Below are positions 2 through 32,915 of a stretch of DNA of 64,000 bases, in pieces. Position numbers and translations under genes: made by a program. Source of the stretch: a virus; IMG/VR virus record IMGVR_UViG_3300036834_000211, positions 1 to 64,000 of that record. One strand, written 5' to 3'. Each line of letters begins with the position of its first letter. Position 1 is the stretch's first letter. The notes beneath the pieces were generated by a model. It worked only from the letters and a program-made list of their open reading frames with translations. It was not told the origin of the DNA and ran no database searches.

Positions 2-2584
2 AACCTGTTCGTCCCCCAGTGGAACGGCCCCACCGGACTGCTGCTGGGCGCCGGTCTACCGGTCAGCTCGACTGGGGCGGCCTCCTCGATCGTCGAGTCC
101 ACGGCGAGCGGCACCATACCCAACTCGCTGATCGCCTTACTCCCCAACGCGAACCTGGCCAACTCGACGATCGGTCTGGTAGTCCCCAGCTGGCTCCAGG
201 TCGGCGGGAGCCCTGCCGCGCTGGGCGGTACGATGACGATCTCCGGGACTAGCCAGACGGCGAATCAGTTCGTCGCTACTCCGAACGGCTCCGCCGGAGC
301 CGTCGCGCTCCGCACCATAGCGCCCGCCGACCTGCCGCTCGGGTCCAGTTCCCAGTTCGGGGCCTTGGAGTGCGGGTCTGGGACGACGTGCACATCGGGC
401 GTGATAACCGTCTCCGGGAGCGGACTGCCGACGGTCAGCAATCAGCAGTTCCTCGGCTACGGGGCGGGATCCGGTAGCGGTACCGCGCAGGCCGTGTCGC
501 TCGCCGCCGGTACCGGCATAACGATCACCTGCTCGGCCCAGACTTGCACCGTCGGTGCGTCGGGCAGCGGGGGCGTATCGGGGCCTGGCTCGTCGGTCAA
601 CAACGACGTCGTGGCGTGGAGCGGCACGGCCGGAGCGGCGCTCAAGGACACCGGCATCCTCTACACGAACCTGGCCACGCTCGCCGGCCCGAACGTGTTT
701 ACCGGGGTCAACACGCTCTCGTCAGGCAACGAGCGAATCCTCGGGACCTCGACCGGCTACACGGCGCTCGCCTCGGCGAATACGACCGCGTCCAACTTCA
801 CGATTACGTTCCCCGCCGCGACGGACACAGTAGACCTGATAGCCGCGGCCCAGGCGCTCAGCAACAAGACGATTAATGGCCTGTCGATCACGGCCAACGG
901 CTCCAATACGCTCAACATCGCCGCCGGCAAGACCCTGACCGACACCTCCGGTGCTGGCCCCGTCCTGCTCCTCGGCGCCACCGGCGGCGGGTTCGCGGGC
1001 TACGCCGGGGCGTCGTGCACGAGCCAGGTCCTCACCGCCATCAGCGCGGCCGGACTCGGCTCGTGCGGGAACGTGGGAACGTCCATGCTCGCGGCCGCGG
1101 CCGTCACCTACGCCAAGATCCAGAACGAGGCCGCGAATACGGTCCTCGGGAATCCGACCGGTACGGCGGCGTCCCCGTCGGAGATCGCGCTCGGGACGAC
1201 CGGCAACTCGACGGTCGTCCTGACCGACAGCAGCGGCAACATGAAGGCTCCGGTCAATACGACGACCGGAGCCTTCAGCGGACCGATCACGTCGACTGCT
1301 GCGACCGGTACTCCTCCCTTCGTCATCGCTAGTACTACGAACGTCCCGAACCTCAACGCCAGCAGCCTCGGGGGGGCCACCTTCGCGTCTCCAGGGCCCA
1401 TCGGCAGTACTGCGTCGAGTACCGGTGCGTTTACCGTGCTGACCGGTACCTCGGGTAGTCTCACGGGGATCACCGCTCTCGGCCTCCGTGATACCTCCGC
1501 GGCGTTCGATGTGACCTTCACCCCGACGTCGTCCGTGGCGCTGACCGCTGCGCGTACTCTGACCTACGATCTGGCTAACGGATCTCGCACGTTCAAGCTC
1601 GGCGCGAACCTCACGGTAGTCACGGACCCCGGAGCAGTAACCGGGGCGCTCAGGAGTAACGGCTCCGGTACGTTCTCCCAGGCCGGCTGCGCCGATCTCT
1701 CCGGCGGCTGCGCCGCGGTGACTACGTCCGACGGGACCCACAGCGTCCCCAACACCACGTCGCTCGCCTTCGGCAACGGCTTCGTCGTCGGGGGCTCGGC
1801 CGGAGCGGCAACAGTCAACGCGACGGTGCCGGACAGCACGAAGACGGCGAGCTACACGGCGACGTCCGCCGACATGAACGGCGCGCTCAACCTGGCGGGG
1901 ACCTCCGGCACGCCGGCCCTGACCCTCCCCGCGCACAGCACTGCGATCCTCGCTCCCGGCATGTCCCTGTCCATCTCCGTCACTGGTACGGTGCCGTGGA
2001 CGATCACGAACTCCAGCGGCCTGACGATGACCGGGCTCAACTCGACGACGCTGCCGCCCGGAACCAACGGATCGCTCGTCGCCAACTCCAACGGCACCGG
2101 TCTGGACTTCTTCGCCGGGGCCCAGCCGCCCACGACGACTGTGATCGGCTCCGTCATGGCGAAGGACTGCTCGACCGGCGGGCAGTTACTCCAGAAGATC
2201 AACACAGACGGGACCGAGACCTGCGCTACCCCCGGCGCCGGCGTCGACTCGGTGGCTACTGGGATCGCCTCGGCGGGTACGACGCAGGCCTCGGCGACGG
2301 TGCTGGCCTCGCAGACGAATCAGGTGACGACGGCAGCCGGGGCCTGCCCGAGCGGCGGACCCTACGCGGCGTGCAACGGCGTGGTCCTCGGCAGTGCGGT
2401 CGCCGTCGGGGACCACCAGGTCGTCTGCAACGACGGGGCCTCGAACGGATTCCTGGCCTATCCGTCTGGAACGGGGACGATCTTCAACGGCGCCGCCGCG
2501 GCCGCGGTCCGCGTCGAGGTTAACTCCTGCAACACGTTTCGAAGGATCACCTCCGGTGCGAATGGGCATTGGGTCGTCTCTTAG
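2..2584 (+). CDS. Repetitive tail-fibre-like protein, N-terminus outside the window
   Basis: The frame is open from the first bases of the window, so the gene starts upstream. The visible ~860 residues are dominated by Gly, Ser, Thr, Ala and Asn, with short beta-prone repeats of the type seen in phage fibre shafts (for example ALRTIAPADLP near the start). Two Cys-containing patches (GSGTTCTSG, CSAQTCTVG) recall the Cys pairs in the secreted fibres further along this genome. No enzymatic motif is visible. Its stop lies inside the next gene, which starts 23 bases earlier. Fibre assignment rests on composition and context only. Confidence 0.65.
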   Translation, partial: NLFVPQWNGPTGLLLGAGLPVSSTGAASSIVESTASGTIPNSLIALLPNANLANSTIGLVVPSWLQVGGSPAALGGTMTISGTSQTANQFVATPNGSAGAVALRTIAPADLPLGSSSQFGALECGSGTTCTSGVITVSGSGLPTVSNQQFLGYGAGSGSGTAQAVSLAAGTGITITCSAQTCTVGASGSGGVSGPGSSVNNDVVAWSGTAGAALKDTGILYTNLATLAGPNVFTGVNTLSSGNERILGTSTGYTALASANTTASNFTITFPAATDTVDLIAAAQALSNKTINGLSITANGSNTLNIAAGKTLTDTSGAGPVLLLGATGGGFAGYAGASCTSQVLTAISAAGLGSCGNVGTSMLAAAAVTYAKIQNEAANTVLGNPTGTAASPSEIALGTTGNSTVVLTDSSGNMKAPVNTTTGAFSGPITSTAATGTPPFVIASTTNVPNLNASSLGGATFASPGPIGSTASSTGAFTVLTGTSGSLTGITALGLRDTSAAFDVTFTPTSSVALTAARTLTYDLANGSRTFKLGANLTVVTDPGAVTGALRSNGSGTFSQAGCADLSGGCAAVTTSDGTHSVPNTTSLAFGNGFVVGGSAGAATVNATVPDSTKTASYTATSADMNGALNLAGTSGTPALTLPAHSTAILAPGMSLSISVTGTVPWTITNSSGLTMTGLNSTTLPPGTNGSLVANSNGTGLDFFAGAQPPTTTVIGSVMAKDCSTGGQLLQKINTDGTETCATPGAGVDSVATGIASAGTTQASATVLASQTNQVTTAAGACPSGGPYAACNGVVLGSAVAVGDHQVVCNDGASNGFLAYPSGTGTIFNGAAAAAVRVEVNSCNTFRRITSGANGHWVVS

Positions 2585-3623
2585 TTGCCTCGTCCTGGCG
2601 CTCCTCCTCGCCGCCCTCTGCGGTAGTGCGGCTGCGCAGACCGAGGCCCCGCACCCGTTCGTGCCAGGCCACTCGCTGTGCATGGTCAACGGGATCGCGG
2701 ATACGTGCGCGCCGATCTACACCCCGCCGCTCACCTCCAACGCCTACTCGGTCCTGTACACCGGATCCAACTCGAATGGGTTGGGGACCGGCACGGACGA
2801 CTTCCACATCCTGTCGTGCTTCGGGGCCGGCGCCCCGGCGACGTACACGCTCCCGCAGAGCACCTCGACGGTGTTCCCACCGGGCCACGGAGTGGGGATT
2901 AAGAACGCCTGCAACTATCCCCTCACGGTGACGTCGGCCTCGTTCATCTACGGGGCACCGGGAGTGGTAAACGGCAACCCAGCCAGTCTCGGTGGGCAGT
3001 TCGTGCTGTTCCCCGGAGGGGAGGCGTGGCTCCAGGCCGACCCATCTAACCACTACTTGGTGACCGGGTTCGTCCCGGGGACGTGGTACCAGTTCGCCAA
3101 CAACGTACCCCTACTGCGGTGGACCGGCCTCGGCGGGTACCCGGAGTATCGACTCATCTGCTCCGGGCTGATACTCGCGACCTCGGGCGACCACTTCAGT
3201 CTGCAACTCGCCTACGGCGGCACGTTCCAGACGACTGGATACCAGTACGTGAAGACGAGCATACTTCAGACCATAAGTACCGCGGCGGTCTACACTAGTA
3301 GTGGTACCCAGGGGCCGACTGGTACGGGGGATACTGCGATCGTGCTCACGGACTCCATAGACAGCACGACCGCCGCTGCCGACGGCACTACGCTCAACCT
3401 ATTGATTACGACGGCCAACGGTACGGGGGCCGGAAATAAGGTCGTAGTCACCGGCATAGGGAGTTGGAACGCCTCCGGCGGGCCGGCGTACGAGGGTGGT
3501 ACCACACTTAACGCCAGCGGACCGTACTCGACGAGCGCGAACCTGACCGGGATACAGATCATCGACTGGAACAACAGTAGTGCAAACTTTACCGGTATGT
3601 GCCGTCTGGAGCCAGTGACGTGA
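2562..3623 (+). CDS. Secreted fibre-like protein with Sec signal peptide
   Basis: Start chosen at the ATG overlapping the end of the previous gene, because it gives a clean signal peptide (MGIGSSLSCLVLALLLAALC followed by GSAAAQ, cleavage after AQ/AAA). The mature part of ~330 residues is rich in Gly, Thr, Ser and Asn with probable beta structure, and has paired Cys residues early on (LCMVNGIADTCAP). No catalytic motif is recognised. It overlaps the following gene by one base. Likely a surface or fibre component; the export signal is the odd feature. Confidence 0.65.
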   Translation: MGIGSSLSCLVLALLLAALCGSAAAQTEAPHPFVPGHSLCMVNGIADTCAPIYTPPLTSNAYSVLYTGSNSNGLGTGTDDFHILSCFGAGAPATYTLPQSTSTVFPPGHGVGIKNACNYPLTVTSASFIYGAPGVVNGNPASLGGQFVLFPGGEAWLQADPSNHYLVTGFVPGTWYQFANNVPLLRWTGLGGYPEYRLICSGLILATSGDHFSLQLAYGGTFQTTGYQYVKTSILQTISTAAVYTSSGTQGPTGTGDTAIVLTDSIDSTTAAADGTTLNLLITTANGTGAGNKVVVTGIGSWNASGGPAYEGGTTLNASGPYSTSANLTGIQIIDWNNSSANFTGMCRLEPVT

Positions 3624-23905: not shown

Positions 23906-24154
23906 ATGAACGTGAGCCTTATTTATCGTGCGCTAGTACTCGTGGTCCTGGCGACCGTCCCGGCTGGTGCCCAGACAGGCGTGCCGCCGTCATACGGACG
24001 CGCCGCGAGGATGCCCCCGCGTCCCCTCACCGCCGAGGAGCTTCGGGCTGCTGCCAAGCTGTGCGAGGGCGACGCCGGGAAGGCGTACCCGGACGCCTGC
24101 GCCGACGTGACTAGGCGGATCGAGGAGGGGTCGAGATCAGAGCCGACGAGGTGA
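23906..24154 (+). CDS. Small secreted protein, unknown function
   Basis: 82 residues; the start is fixed by AAAAAGGAG just upstream. Signal peptide MNVSLIYRALVLVVLATVPA (cleavage near AGAQ), then a short polar chain with one Cys pair (KLCEGDAGKAYPDACADV). The TGA overlaps the GTG of the head-morphogenesis gene. A disulfide-containing periplasmic peptide is likely; function unknown. Confidence 0.6.
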   Translation: MNVSLIYRALVLVVLATVPAGAQTGVPPSYGRAARMPPRPLTAEELRAAAKLCEGDAGKAYPDACADVTRRIEEGSRSEPTR

Positions 24155-26058
24155 TCGGTCGCGTCCTCGATCCCTTCCAGCGCCCCTTCGGCGCTCCCGC
24201 CGTCCTGGCAGCGGACGCCGCGCCCCGCCGTCCCAGGCGAACGGCGGACGGCAGGCCGATCGGGGCCGCGATCCGGCCCAGCGCCGGCATCCAGGCCAAC
24301 TACGACGCGCGCCTGCGCCGCCTCCTCGACGAGATGTGCGTCTCCGTGCTGTACTGGGTCAAGGCCGCGTACCGGAGGGAGGACGAGCGGATCGGGGTAC
24401 TCGCCGCGGATTCGTGGATCGACTCTAGTCCTGATCCGTCCTCATTCGCATTGGACGCCCGCCCGAGTACCGCGCTGCGGGAGGTCATCCGGCGCCTGCG
24501 GCGCCGCTGGCTGGGCCGGTTCGACGAGGCCTCGCAGGACCTGGCGCGCTACTTCGCGACCGCGGTCTGGCGTCGCAATGCCGACGAGCTGCGAAAGATC
24601 CTGAGGAGGGGCGGCCTCTCGGTCGAGTTCAGGCCCGGCCGCGCCGCGCGAGACGCGCTGGCCGCGATCGTCGAGGAGAACGTCGCGCTGATCCGGAGCA
24701 TCCCCCAGCAGTACCTGACCCAGGTCGAGGGGTCCGTGATGCGCAGCGTGGTGGCCGGGCGCGACCTGGCCGCGCTGACCTCCGATCTCCAGCACCAGCA
24801 CGGGGTGACCAGGCGACGTGCCGAGCTGATCTCGCTCCACCAGAACAACATGGCGACCGGCGCGATTCAGCGCGTCCAGTACCTCGACCTGGGGATCGAG
24901 CGGGCGATCTGGAGGCATAGCCACGCCGGCAAGTGCAAGCGCCCGTCCCACGTTGCCAACGACGGCGAGGAGTACGACGTCCGGACCGGGTGGTACGACC
25001 CGCACGAGAGGCGGTATATTAGACCAGGAGAATTGATTCACTGCTTTCCTGGATCAACTCAGATCGAGCTCCGGCGTAGTATCTCTATCGAGAGGCTTTG
25101 GCGTTCGTTTTTCAACGGACCAGTGATCAACCTCGTGGTGGGAACCGATTTGCTCCAGTCGACACCTAATCACCCAATACTGACCCGAGATGGTTGGAAG
25201 TCTGCTAATGCGATTGAGGTAGGAGACGAGATAATTTGCGTGCTCAGTGAGGATGCGAGCGTTGTTGCAAACCAGGAATACAAATTTGTAACCAGCTTCG
25301 CCGATCTTTTTGAAACGTGCCTCATTATTTTTGGAAATGTGCGCCGAAGTCGAGCTAGTTTTGACTTCTATGGCGACGTTCCCGATAGTGATGTCGATGA
25401 GGTAGCTGTCGATCACGGTCTGCTGCTCGAATACTATTCCCTTACTTTCGAGCAGTGTGGCGAGTTCCGCCTCGCCGAATCCGATGGATGGGTTAAATAT
25501 TCCGTTTTGGACGTTCTCGATCGCGTTCTGCATTCGTCGGCTGCGTGCGGACTCGGTATATTGTCTTCGCTGTTCGATGGTACGATTAGAAGCCATAAGT
25601 CGGTTTGCGTCTCCCACCGATCTGCGAGGGATGGCCCTCTCTTCGAGGATGCGCTCAACGTTGCTTCTACTGATGCCGAGCTTGCGTCCAATGTTCGGCG
25701 ATCCATCTCCACTCAAGTACATTGTGACGACTTGCGCCTTCGTTTCGGCAGAGATGGAGTCGAGCTTGGTGGGAGGTCGACCCCAAGGACGTCCGGGTCG
25801 ATGTCCTATCGGGATCTTGAAGCCGCGGCCACGCAGCGCAGTACTTACTTGGTCGGCGGTAAAGCCGACGGCTTCGGCAGCTTCCTTGAGTCGCGCGCCC
25901 GCTCGTATCAGATCCGCTGCATTAGCGAGAAGTTTATCGGGGATTTTTCTGGACATGTATATACCATGCAAACTAACCTAGGGTATTATACTGTCGGTGC
26001 GGTAAATGTCCTAGCGAAAAATTGCCGCTGCTTCAGCCAGCCAATACTGCCGAGGTGA
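24151..26058 (+). CDS. Mu gpF-like head morphogenesis protein interrupted by an intein
   Basis: 635 residues from a GTG. Residues 1-297 are the N-extein: a helical phage-head morphogenesis domain ending with RAELISLHQNNMATGAIQ, RHSHAGKCKRPSHV and DPHERRYIRPGELIH. Residues 298-624 are an intein; residues 625-635 (CRCFSQPILPR) complete the family's conserved C-terminal HCRC metal-site motif only after splicing. The mature product would be ~308 residues, normal for this family. It joins portal and capsid assembly and is packaged in small numbers in the head of many phages. The C-extein begins with Cys, as splicing chemistry requires. Confidence 0.88.
   Translation: MIGRVLDPFQRPFGAPAVLAADAAPRRPRRTADGRPIGAAIRPSAGIQANYDARLRRLLDEMCVSVLYWVKAAYRREDERIGVLAADSWIDSSPDPSSFALDARPSTALREVIRRLRRRWLGRFDEASQDLARYFATAVWRRNADELRKILRRGGLSVEFRPGRAARDALAAIVEENVALIRSIPQQYLTQVEGSVMRSVVAGRDLAALTSDLQHQHGVTRRRAELISLHQNNMATGAIQRVQYLDLGIERAIWRHSHAGKCKRPSHVANDGEEYDVRTGWYDPHERRYIRPGELIHCFPGSTQIELRRSISIERLWRSFFNGPVINLVVGTDLLQSTPNHPILTRDGWKSANAIEVGDEIICVLSEDASVVANQEYKFVTSFADLFETCLIIFGNVRRSRASFDFYGDVPDSDVDEVAVDHGLLLEYYSLTFEQCGEFRLAESDGWVKYSVLDVLDRVLHSSAACGLGILSSLFDGTIRSHKSVCVSHRSARDGPLFEDALNVASTDAELASNVRRSISTQVHCDDLRLRFGRDGVELGGRSTPRTSGSMSYRDLEAAATQRSTYLVGGKADGFGSFLESRARSYQIRCISEKFIGDFSGHVYTMQTNLGYYTVGAVNVLAKNCRCFSQPILPR
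25054..25956 (-). CDS. Vsr/PD-(D/E)XK-type homing endonuclease encoded antisense within the intein
   Basis: 300 residues from ATG 25956 (a TTG at 25971 would add five). The N-terminal half carries two helix-turn-helix units: LIRAGARLKEAAEAVGFTAD and YLSGDGSPNIGRKLGISRSN, for site recognition. The C-terminal half is a PD-(D/E)XK nuclease core: Glu162 (FGEAEL), Asp188 (YLIDITI), Glu197 and Lys199 (AIEVKTS), then RFKKIGEAGYKFVFLVCN as in Vsr-like very-short-patch nucleases. Its codons are in exact register with the sense codons, so both products are encoded by the same triplets read in opposite directions. Predicted to cut intein-free alleles and drive homing. Assignment by motif; no search was possible. 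Confidence 0.8.
   Translation of the reverse strand: MSRKIPDKLLANAADLIRAGARLKEAAEAVGFTADQVSTALRGRGFKIPIGHRPGRPWGRPPTKLDSISAETKAQVVTMYLSGDGSPNIGRKLGISRSNVERILEERAIPRRSVGDANRLMASNRTIEQRRQYTESARSRRMQNAIENVQNGIFNPSIGFGEAELATLLESKGIVFEQQTVIDSYLIDITIGNVAIEVKTSSTSAHISKNNEARFKKIGEAGYKFVFLVCNNARILTEHANYLVSYLNRISRLPTISGQYWVIRCRLEQIGSHHEVDHWSVEKRTPKPLDRDTTPELDLS
25985..26012 (-). promoter_or_regulatory. Promoter-like sequence for the antisense endonuclease
   Basis: On the minus strand a perfect TATAAT (plus 25985-25990) is preceded at 16 bases by AGGACA (plus 26007-26012), four of six matches to the -35 consensus. The expected transcript start is about 20 bases before the ATG at 25956. It lies within the sense-strand codons of block F/G. 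No strong Shine-Dalgarno follows. Confidence 0.55.
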
Positions 26059-26123
26059 GAATTGACTAAGGTCGCAGCGTTCACTTCTCTTGGTCTCGCG
26101 CATTCTATCCGTACCACGTTCTA

Positions 26124-26261
26124 ATGGAAGCCCTGCATCGAATCCTCTCTGGGCAGGCGCTGACGACCCGACAGCTGACGCTCGCGGGCATCTTCGTGAG
26201 CGTGTGGTTCCTAATGGACCTGATCCAGTTCGTCGACTGGGTCGCCGGTAAATTTTTCTAG
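26124..26261 (+). CDS. 45-residue membrane peptide
   Basis: Begins MEALHRILSGQALTTRQ, followed by one hydrophobic helix (LAGIFVSVWFLMDLIQFV) and a short basic end. No clear ribosome site, so the start is uncertain. It lies in the 217-base space between the intein-containing gene and the next gene. Single-span membrane protein of unknown role. Confidence 0.45.
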   Translation: MEALHRILSGQALTTRQLTLAGIFVSVWFLMDLIQFVDWVAGKFF

Positions 26262-29939: not shown

Positions 29940-32915
29940 GTGTCGTCCTGTTCATTATTGCCTCTGTGCTTCGACTGCTCTCGCCTGCGCGGCGTCGTAC
30001 CGGATGTGGGCTGGACCTGCGAGGCGTTCCCTAGTGGTATCCCGACCGACATCCTGGCATCAGTCCACGACCACCGCGAGCCGTACGAGGGCGACGGCGG
30101 TCTGACGTTCGAGTCCAAGGTGACGGCTCAGGATTGGTGGGGTGATGTCGAGTGGAATGAGGGAGAGCACCCGCGCGGTCAGCCCGAAAACAAAGGTCAG
30201 TTTGCCAAGACTTCGAGTGTTGACCCGAAGGTTCATTCAGGTCTCGAGAAGAAAGGTTTTTCGCACGCAGGTGGCGAGGAGGCTCGTTATACTCACGCTT
30301 CGGGGCATGGGATCAGTTTTGAGCCACCGGCAAGGGAGGGTAGCTACGCCTACCAGTGGCAGCATCACGATCCTCAGGGAAATCTCGTCAAGAGAGACTT
30401 TGGCACCAGCACCCTAACAACCCATACGAACAAGATAGTTCGTGAAGCGCAAAGGGCTCCTACTGCTGAAATACCCGAGACACCCGATTGGAAGACGCCT
30501 GAAGAGGCTGCTAAAGGATTCCGCGAGCGGCATGGAAGCGCCATCATATTTGACAATTCGATATCATCCGCTGCTCAAGTATCGAAAACAAAGCAGCTTG
30601 ATCACTCATTAAGCGAGATCAAAGCCAATTTTCCTGGTTTAGGTGCTCTTGTTAGTGTATCCCAATTCGAAATCGCCAGTGGGCGCAGTGTCCCAATGGA
30701 GGACAGTGCGGGTGCGATGGGTGGATATTATCCACAGACTAGGAGACTTGTACTAGCTTCCAGTCTCAGAACAGAGGATGGGGTTCTTCACCGCGGACAG
30801 CATCTGGTTGGTGGACATACTCTACCTAACGTCCTACGACATGAGTTGGGGCACGCTATCGAGCGCAAGGTTCGTGAGGCCTCACCTGGAGGTTGGTCTA
30901 GTACGTGGTGGCAGGAGGTAAAGAAAACTGCTGGTAAAGACATCAGCAAGTATGCCGCGACCAACTTTGCCGAGTACTTCGCCGAATCCGTAGCAGCATA
31001 TTTGCATCCAGACTTTGCAACCAGTGGGGTTAAGATTGCTCCACGCATTCTAGAAGCTTTTGACAGTTTGCTGAGAAAGTCTCCACCCGAGGGCAAATCT
31101 TTAGATCAACACATTGAAGATTCGATGCCCGAACTGACTACAGACCCCCCCGAGTCCGAGGCCCAACGCCGCGCCATGTTCGCGGCTGCGGCCGGCCACT
31201 CGAACCTGGGCATCTCCCCGAGCGTGGGCAAGGAGTTCGCCGAGTCCGACCCGGGCGGCAAGCTGCCCGAGAAGGTCGGCAAGGACCTGGCCCCCCGCAA
31301 GTGGAAGATCCTCAAGCGCCTGTTCGGCGAGTGGCTGGACGAGGAGGAGGCCGAGCCGGAGCACCAGACCGTCGACGGGTGGGATGAGTGGTCTCCAGAG
31401 GCTCGAGAGGCGGCGGCCAAGGCAAGACAAAAGAAGACCCCTTTTGAGCGTGCGATGGAGCGAACCAATAAGGGTATTGCTAAGACCGAGCGCGAAAAAG
31501 CGAAGTATGGCGGCTTGACTGCGCCTCCTAAAGGAAAGAAAATTCAAGGCCCTAGCGAGTATGACCCAAATAATCCTGCAGGTCACAAGAGATTTGATTC
31601 GGCTGACGACAACTGGACACGCCGGGGCCGAGCGGCCAGCGTAGCGCTCACCACCGGGGACGGCCACGTCCTGCTCCTGCGACGGGCACGAGACGAGACG
31701 AACTGGCCCGATACCTGGTCGTTCCCCGGTGGGAAGGCAGAGGATGACGAGGATGACGAATCCGCCGCCAGGCGGGAGTTGGGCGAGGAGACTGGTTACG
31801 ACGGCGCCCTCGACGGCATGGCCGAGCTGGAGCGCACCCGCACCCCGAACGACTTCGAGCACGTCACCTACGTCGTCCCAGTCAGGGAGAAGTTCGAGCC
31901 CAAGCTTAGCCGGGAGCACAGCGGCTTTATGTGGGCTCCGGTGACCCGACTGCCCGAGAATACCCACCCCGGCGTCCGAGCCGCGATCGACCGGGTGATC
32001 GGGAAGGTGGCCGACGACGACGGTGCTCGAGACAAGAAGCTCGTCGTAGACCTGGACGACGACGAGAACCAACTCACCAAGCTGCTGACCCACATCAAGG
32101 AGACGGCCTCCGTCGGTCACTCGTTCGAGGTCGTGGTCGACCCGGAGGACCCGGAGCATCGGGCCAAGTTCTTCATCGACGGCGACGGCGCGTTCCGCAT
32201 CAAGAAGGTGGAGCAGGCCGCCGACGAGCTGGCGATGGACTGGACCGGGACCGCGATCCTCAGTCACTCGCCGCCCTGCGAGCTGGGGCTCTTCGACCCG
32301 AATGGACCAGTTCCACCTGTCTTCGACTTCGCCTACGACCGCGAGTCGGCCCGGCAGTACGATGCGGACGGTCACCTCCACGTCAGGGACGTGAACATCG
32401 CCAAGGCGAGCGTCAACGAGTATCTCGGCGAGGAGATCCCGGACTGGGAGAAGCTGGGGCTGGACCCGAAGAGGAAGTACCGCCTGTGGCGACACCCGGA
32501 CGAGCTGAAGAAGGCCGTTCCGACGGCCAACGGGAAGCCGATCCTGGACGACCACGCGCCGATCAACGCGGACACGCACGATCGAAAGATGGTCGTCGGA
32601 TCGGTTGGCACCGACGCGAGGTGGGAGCCCCCGTTTGTGAAGTCCACCCTGTCGTTCTGGCCGGCTAAGGCCAGCCGGGAGATTGAGAGCAACCGGCGCC
32701 GCGCCCTGAGCCCGGCTTACCGATACCGACCTGACATGACCCCGGGTCGTACTCCCGACGGCGAGCCTTACGACGGTGTGATGCGCGACATCTCCTTCTC
32801 GCACCTGGCCCAGATCCCGGAGGGTCGCCAGGGACCGGACATCGTCGTCACGGACGAATTGTTCACGTGGTCGACAATCGAGCGGGCCCTGCAGGAGATG
32901 ATGGTCTCGGGATGA
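29940..32915 (+). CDS. Multi-domain head maturation protein: metallopeptidase, NUDIX hydrolase and DUF2213 prohead protease-like domains
   Basis: 991 residues from a GTG. Residues ~8-60 hold a Cys-bearing module ending SVHDHREPYEGDGGLTFE, common at the front of phage head proteins. Residues ~95-400 are lower in GC and contain HELGHAIE near 303 and FAEYFAESVAAY near 345, a gluzincin-type metallopeptidase. Residues ~560-690 are a NUDIX domain (FPGGKAEDDEDDESAARREL then GEETGY). Residues ~760-985 match DUF2213 (YLGEEIPDWEKLGLDP, GKPILDDHAPINAD, ISFSHLAQIPEGRQGPDIVV), associated with capsid maturation. DUF2213 proteins usually stand alone at ~400 residues, so this is a fusion. Confidence 0.8.
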   Translation: MSSCSLLPLCFDCSRLRGVVPDVGWTCEAFPSGIPTDILASVHDHREPYEGDGGLTFESKVTAQDWWGDVEWNEGEHPRGQPENKGQFAKTSSVDPKVHSGLEKKGFSHAGGEEARYTHASGHGISFEPPAREGSYAYQWQHHDPQGNLVKRDFGTSTLTTHTNKIVREAQRAPTAEIPETPDWKTPEEAAKGFRERHGSAIIFDNSISSAAQVSKTKQLDHSLSEIKANFPGLGALVSVSQFEIASGRSVPMEDSAGAMGGYYPQTRRLVLASSLRTEDGVLHRGQHLVGGHTLPNVLRHELGHAIERKVREASPGGWSSTWWQEVKKTAGKDISKYAATNFAEYFAESVAAYLHPDFATSGVKIAPRILEAFDSLLRKSPPEGKSLDQHIEDSMPELTTDPPESEAQRRAMFAAAAGHSNLGISPSVGKEFAESDPGGKLPEKVGKDLAPRKWKILKRLFGEWLDEEEAEPEHQTVDGWDEWSPEAREAAAKARQKKTPFERAMERTNKGIAKTEREKAKYGGLTAPPKGKKIQGPSEYDPNNPAGHKRFDSADDNWTRRGRAASVALTTGDGHVLLLRRARDETNWPDTWSFPGGKAEDDEDDESAARRELGEETGYDGALDGMAELERTRTPNDFEHVTYVVPVREKFEPKLSREHSGFMWAPVTRLPENTHPGVRAAIDRVIGKVADDDGARDKKLVVDLDDDENQLTKLLTHIKETASVGHSFEVVVDPEDPEHRAKFFIDGDGAFRIKKVEQAADELAMDWTGTAILSHSPPCELGLFDPNGPVPPVFDFAYDRESARQYDADGHLHVRDVNIAKASVNEYLGEEIPDWEKLGLDPKRKYRLWRHPDELKKAVPTANGKPILDDHAPINADTHDRKMVVGSVGTDARWEPPFVKSTLSFWPAKASREIESNRRRALSPAYRYRPDMTPGRTPDGEPYDGVMRDISFSHLAQIPEGRQGPDIVVTDELFTWSTIERALQEMMVSG

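Follow-up and report, generated by a model that had tools for sequence, protein, structure and literature searches.

A phage intein with a putative EDxHD/Vsr-type homing endonuclease gene on its opposite strand

Introduction

Fractured genes, reportedly described by Dassa et al. in 2009, carry split inteins that flank a free-standing gene for a Vsr-like endonuclease. The locus analysed here, which lies in a window of 64,000 nucleotides (positions 1 to 64,000 of the IMG/VR virus record IMGVR_UViG_3300036834_000211), is similar in that a Vsr-like/EDxHD nuclease, predicted to be translated separately, is linked to an intein. It differs in that the intein is contiguous, with a sense frame uninterrupted across the nuclease region, and in that the nuclease is encoded on the other strand. 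Bifunctional inteins, such as PI-SceI, contain an in-frame homing endonuclease (PMC3943268). They share with the present locus the combination of a splicing domain and a homing endonuclease in one insert, a conserved insertion site and the existence of empty alleles; their nuclease, however, is fused to the intein, read from the same strand and controlled by the host gene, whereas here it would be a separate protein, encoded on the opposite strand and provided with a predicted promoter and start of its own.

Antisense homing endonuclease genes are known from the nuclear group I introns of Didymium (PMC9548176) and Porphyra (PMC2585584). There, as here, the nuclease gene lies opposite the splicing element and is transcribed separately (by prediction in the present case). 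These are RNA introns, and their opposite strand need not encode protein, whereas an intein requires that both strands are open and that the splicing motifs are dual-coding. The mobile intron protein I-Bth0305I (PDB 3r3p) resembles the antisense product in the sequence and fold of its catalytic domain, but is encoded in a group I intron and not over an intein; two N-terminal helix-turn-helix units are found in the present protein. In-frame intein nucleases and antisense nucleases of group I introns are already known, and an antisense nuclease gene in an intein is apparently undescribed: as had been suspected in a first-pass annotation made from the sequence alone, no description was found in the open-access literature searched, an absence that is no proof.

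We consider it very likely that the insert is a mobile intein in which each strand carries a gene, the antisense one encoding a separately expressed homing endonuclease of the EDxHD/Vsr type; splicing, cleavage and homing are functions that we infer.

Results and Discussion

Host gene and sense-strand intein

A MuF-like head gene, flanked by a portal gene and by downstream head genes, was found to be interrupted by an insert. The features of the sense strand are as follows:

24151-26058, + strand: open reading frame of the MuF-like head gene, interrupted by the insert
24151-25041, + strand: N-extein of the MuF-like minor head (head morphogenesis) gene (PHROG phrog_324, 3e-56)
25042-26022, + strand: contiguous intein of 327 aa, Cys1 to Asn327 (invariant residues, HINT model, Foldseek)
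25042-25044, + strand: codon of intein Cys1
25162-25185, + strand: splicing block B, TPNHPILT
25951-25971, + strand: splicing block F, GHVYTMQ (GHVY at 25951-25962), the complement of which contains the antisense start codon
26005-26022, + strand: splicing block G, NVLAKN, with the terminal Asn at 26020-26022
26023-26058, + strand: C-extein CRCFSQPILPR and stop codon, beginning with Cys+1

The match of the N-extein to Pfam Phage_Mu_F (8e-4) was below the Pfam cut-off. The N-extein ends with RPGELIH directly before the intein Cys; the insertion is exact, because intein-less MuF relatives read PGELINCRCISRPVIKG over the junction at the same site. The G+C content is 52% in the insert and 63% in the window.

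Cys1, the TxxH of block B and a C-terminal Asn followed by Cys, by which inteins are recognised, are present in the window copy. C1, T41, N43, H44, G304, H305, Y307 and N327, which are the standard splicing residues, were invariant in 55 intein sequences. The window copy has Lys as the penultimate residue of block G; most relatives have His and the others Ser or Lys. In known inteins, a penultimate His is not strictly required. In the predicted model, approximately the first 70 and the last 40 residues form a HINT fold with pLDDT values above 90, and the centre, mostly at pLDDT 36-65, is modelled as disordered. The best PDB matches of this model in Foldseek were inteins, with the Mtu RecA intein first (best E value 2.5e-3, probability 1.00). 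Domain and profile scans of the sense protein found no nuclease domain in this frame, which is unbroken between the intein ends, unlike that of a split intein or a fractured gene. The first-pass annotation had placed a contiguous intein with its splicing blocks and without a sense endonuclease domain at 25042-26022, and this was confirmed by ORF reading, the domain scans and the model.

The PHROG phrog_15127 ("head protein") match in 24151-26058 spans the intein, so that public profiles of the head protein contain intein sequence. Two further phage ORFs of the window gave domain matches: the 991-aa ORF at 29940-32912 combines a NUDIX domain with DUF2213 and a weak match to a zincin-like peptidase, and the ORF at 4190-6049 matches glycosyl hydrolase family 5 weakly, slightly under the cut-off.

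Antisense gene and nuclease homology

The following features were assigned to the complementary strand of the intein:

25054-25956, - strand: antisense homing-endonuclease-like gene, 300 aa (ATG at 25954-25956, stop at 25054-25056)
25969-25971, - strand: alternative antisense start, TTG
25828-25938, - strand: first helix-turn-helix unit, residues 7-43 (Pfam HTH_31, 1e-5; model helices H7-18, H23-30 and H34-43)
25639-25749, - strand: second helix-turn-helix unit, residues 70-106 (Pfam HTH_23, 1e-5, above the cut-off; model)
25162-25473, - strand: EDxHD/Vsr-like nuclease core, residues 162-265, with E162, D188 and E197 (3r3p and 3hrl by profile; fold)

The antisense and sense frames are in exact codon register. 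The antisense ATG lies opposite His305 of block F and the antisense stop opposite intein codon 5, so that the gene also spans almost the entire N-terminal splicing domain. That it overlies the codons of block B and reaches block F had been noted in the first-pass annotation; the two helix-turn-helix units and a nuclease core with D188, E197 and K199, also read there in frame 25054-25956, were recovered in the ORF and in the model.

The predicted antisense model (mean pLDDT 84.7) consists of two tri-helical helix-turn-helix units and an alpha/beta core, with pLDDT values mostly above 90 in the units and the core. Foldseek placed the catalytic domain of I-Bth0305I first (E value 1e-3, probability 1.00), with 3hrl and Vsr also among the matches. 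As a single sequence, the window protein gave a weak nuclease match (DUF559, E value 0.07) and, in a PDB search, chance matches only; family profiles were needed. A profile of 70 antisense proteins matched 3hrl (3e-6) and 3r3p (5e-6) among the PDB sequences, and 23 of the 70 proteins matched the MTES_1575 restriction-nuclease family; the nuclease homology on which the initial interpretation depended is hence found by profile search. D188 is invariant in the 70 sequences, and E162, Y185 and E197 are nearly so. For the His and the other residues of the EDxHD motif, some relatives read VEV(L/F)GG(N/G)W(H); the window reads IEVK, which is nearer to PD-(D/E)XK, and has Leu at the position of the family Asn186. 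These results support the assignment of the antisense frame as a gene for a nuclease of the EDxHD/Vsr type, with cleavage as its predicted activity.

The complement of TPNHPI in block B (25162-25179) encodes antisense residues 260-265 (YWVIRC), modelled as a late strand of the nuclease. Sense F109 and antisense E197 share positions 25366-25368, and the sense motif FHGD is the complement of the nuclease motif V/I-A-V/M-E, which contains the catalytic Glu. FHGD as a "conserved intein motif" is probably a shadow of the opposite strand.

Recurrence in other phages

The same architecture was found in phages of Salmonella, Pantoea, Vibrio, Aggregatibacter, Klebsiella, Edwardsiella and Gordonia. Searches of phages by tblastn with the antisense protein led to the opposite strand of MuF genes (Aggregatibacter, Vibrio, Gordonia, Salmonella and related enterobacteria), several of which were read over their full length; the phages of Klebsiella and Edwardsiella were added by reading MuF genes that had been found with the sense protein. 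Alignment of the antisense proteins against the collection, like a search with the window antisense protein alone, gave nothing usable, and the alignment search of viral contigs was replaced by a DNA pattern for the antisense start site. The pattern identified 82 viral contig loci, at which antisense frames of ∼190-350 aa lie under an open sense frame, except in a few cases cut by a contig end. A codon-independent peptide search gave at least 579 relatives. Of the 53 "HVYNL" inteins that were kept, 52 carry an antisense frame of at least 180 aa that starts exactly opposite the His, in a sample that favours inteins alike in the centre, so that 52/53 is not the share among MuF inteins at large. 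The antisense frame accordingly recurs in related inteins, as would be expected if the original reading is correct. The peptide scan gives the arrangement in ∼80 contigs, partly shared with the start-pattern set, and the overall number of viral contigs with it is well above 80, with MuF as the most frequent host gene. In a second form, FHGxVYNL, it is the His two codons before that faces the antisense start. Comparison by blastp links all 84 antisense proteins, and by these sequence comparisons the family is widespread and the window copy a divergent member of it.

A host gene other than MuF, encoding a UDG-PolA fusion, was found at three loci. A UDG-PolA gene at L100 (3818-4771, + strand) seems to have two inteins in tandem, the first with an in-frame HNH-like stretch and the second of the antisense type.

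The start pattern was also applied to bacterial genomes (L209-L247) as an independent promoter test and was rejected for this use; the matches were mostly NrdD look-alikes (HMYNLEATPAEGT). Real copies in the bacterial scan were confined to L227 (Firmicutes MAG), L237 (Spirochaetaceae MAG) and L245 (Chloroflexi MAG), and L247 is an intein with an antisense frame of just 47 aa.

Selection on the two frames

An antisense frame might be a by-product, with selection on the sense protein only and the complement as its echo. Frames in register share their second positions and give mirrored similarity, and long antisense frames are common in GC-rich DNA: in the genome scan, in which nearly all matches were NrdD look-alikes, 23 of the 39 matches had frames of at least 180 aa. 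Changes at sense position 3 were compared with those at position 1 in 14 separate pairs of relatives. The ratio of position 3 to position 1 changes was 1.53 in the N-exteins, 3.0 in block B and 1.76 in blocks F-G, versus 0.80 in the centre, where position 2 was the most conserved (centre versus N-extein, Fisher p 4e-35). In the part from Cys1 to block B the ratio was near even (1.06), as expected where both strands are constrained. The central bias was missing or reversed in two of the 14 pairs (L079/L026 and L090/L099). In the jersey-type Salmonella phages, which have diverged little, variable sites at sense positions 1/2/3 numbered 36/7/14 in the centre versus 71/43/175 in the N-extein (positions 1 and 3 of the centre against both exteins, p 1.5e-9). 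Substitutions are concentrated at antisense third positions in the centre and at sense third positions in the exteins.

For the window copy, the sense protein was kept, its own synonymous codons were permuted and the antisense frame was rescored with the family HMM. The observed score of 199.9 compares with 59.9 ± 13.4 in this null (∼10 SD); in the converse shuffle, the sense score fell from 163 to about 0. Neither of the two frames echoes its complement. The by-product explanation is hardly credible: the selection signal changes strand in the centre, the antisense signal is lost when only the sense protein is preserved, the sense centre is modelled as disordered and the antisense protein is homologous to solved nucleases. 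For the family, an echo of a single coding strand is rejected by the codon-position counts together with the synonymous nulls in both directions.

Because the frames are in register, a sense stop would appear as TTA, CTA or TCA in the antisense gene. In 81 antisense genes, at loci that are not all independent, none of these codons was found versus 713 expected from the codon usage of neighbouring genes, which indicates that the sense frame is held open. Codons 6-312 of the window's sense intein are likewise free of TTA, CTA and TCA. The counts bear on a further explanation, in which a reverse nuclease gene was inserted into MuF without forming a spliced intein, the sense frame being open by chance or as a long tail. 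The Lys in place of the penultimate His in the window would agree with it, splicing itself being a prediction, but it is very unlikely in view of the invariant C1, T41, H44 and N327 followed by Cys, the precise empty sites in relatives, the HINT fold in the model and the 0/713 sense-stop complements.

The closest relative of the window antisense protein in the antisense set has 33% identity (blastp); with no closer relative, selection on the window copy is seen only through the profile score and the codons. For the family, the substitution patterns show that the predicted antisense gene is under purifying selection.

Predicted expression signals of the antisense gene

Two putative promoter elements were located upstream of the antisense ATG in the window:

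25985-25990, - strand: -10 element TATAAT, 28 nt upstream of the ATG, opposite sense Tyr-Tyr codons
26007-26012, - strand: -35-like element AGGACA, with a 16-nt spacer (10 of 12 matches to the promoter)

This promoter is the sole promoter-like site in 25850-26150 (mean of 0.2 in shuffles), and the best -10 match is at the same distance of 28 nt in 12 of 115 inteins. The antisense Shine-Dalgarno sequence of the window copy is weak; in relatives, the complement of block F (N-L-Q/E) reads GGAGGTT, a Shine-Dalgarno sequence directly upstream of the antisense ATG. The complement of block G (I-I-T-H-N) is very often TGTGTTATAAT, an extended -10 element 45 nt from the ATG. In inteins with a different block G, TATAAT occupies other positions (for example, 28 nt), and in several cases TTGACA lies 17-18 nt upstream.

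Synonymous recoding of the same block F-G peptides was used as the null. TATAAT occurred 44 times versus 7.4 expected, TGnTATAAT 23 versus 1.2, and TTGACA together with a -10 element 7 versus 0.2; ATA was used at the second Ile in 34 of 43 cases versus 9.8. A perfect TATAAT is present in 44 of 114 C-terminal regions and no more. In a viral set selected by peptide, independently of the start pattern, TATAAT was found 15 times versus 2.0, TGnTATAAT 9 versus 0.1 and the Shine-Dalgarno sequence 37 versus 14.8. These comparisons support the prediction that a Shine-Dalgarno sequence and a sigma70 promoter are spelled out by the choice among synonymous codons in blocks F and G. An earlier guess, that nuclease expression is uncoupled from that of the host gene, gains support from the predicted antisense promoter and ribosome-binding site.

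Taken as a class, these phage inteins probably have dual-coding splicing motifs: a late strand of the nuclease is encoded opposite block B, its ribosome-binding site and start codon lie opposite block F, and its promoter lies opposite block G or nearby.

Mobility and proposed mode of action

The MuF gene of the jersey-type Salmonella phages matched 348 phage records; in 58 of them, 80% or more of the intein-bearing gene is covered. Most of the other matches listed are in two pieces with a gene of ∼1044 nt, that is, 1860 nt minus the 816-nt intein, and are empty; filled and empty alleles coexist in these phages. Between LSPA1 and the others, the N-extein differs by 28-32% and the intein by about 4%; across comparisons with N-extein differences of up to 32%, the intein range is 3-5%. 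This contrast agrees with the intein having recently moved laterally in one piece; it may also stem from recombination confined to the 5′ part of the MuF gene. Mantel correlations were 0.39 for the nuclease with the MuF extein and 0.49 for the splicing domain with the nuclease. Co-mobility and vertical descent are not clearly told apart by this comparison; since the nuclease also correlates with the MuF extein, vertical inheritance may account for some of the spread.

In the proposed mode of action, the + strand frame would be translated within the MuF head protein, and the HINT domain, built from the two ends of the insert according to sequence and model, would excise itself. The sense reading of the nuclease region would serve as an unstructured linker without stops. 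The - strand frame would yield the separate EDxHD/Vsr-type homing endonuclease with its two helix-turn-helix DNA-binding units, from a start opposite block F and a promoter inside the C-terminal coding region of the intein. As both lie inside the intein, the whole expression cassette would move with it. In mixed infections, MuF alleles that lack the intein would be cleaved by the nuclease where the intein inserts, and recombinational repair would then copy in the intein and the nuclease. Its own promoter would have the advantage of freeing the timing of the nuclease from that of a structural, presumably late, gene.

Free-standing phage nucleases are known that act in exclusion. A real antisense nuclease might bring its benefit through marker or superinfection exclusion, or through antisense-RNA control of MuF, since a convergent antisense promoter could dampen sense expression. 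As a replacement for homing this is quite unlikely: the intein and the nuclease stay linked, there are signs that the intein has moved laterally from allele to allele, and empty alleles coexist with filled ones. Exclusion and homing are compatible with each other.

If the homing intein is as proposed, the two strands of one stretch of DNA have different roles: one is a complete mobile element that expresses itself, and the other encodes a protein that removes itself. This would be a new architecture for intein biology and would offer a way to produce a nuclease in time for homing even though it is encoded within a structural, presumably late, gene. It would also give dual-coding studies a well-supported example in which complementary strands, in codon register, each encode a full-length protein, and of which many natural variants exist. 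The pairs of intein-plus and empty alleles in jersey-type Salmonella phages make homing directly testable. Many "head morphogenesis" annotations and one PHROG profile would contain an unrecognised intein and nuclease.

The window copy itself may be partly decayed, given its weak Shine-Dalgarno sequence, Leu for Asn186 and Lys for the penultimate His. At L135 (match at 2501-3316), the sense intein is open and the antisense gene is broken after 35 codons; this is a decayed copy, such as a homing cycle would produce in its decay phase.
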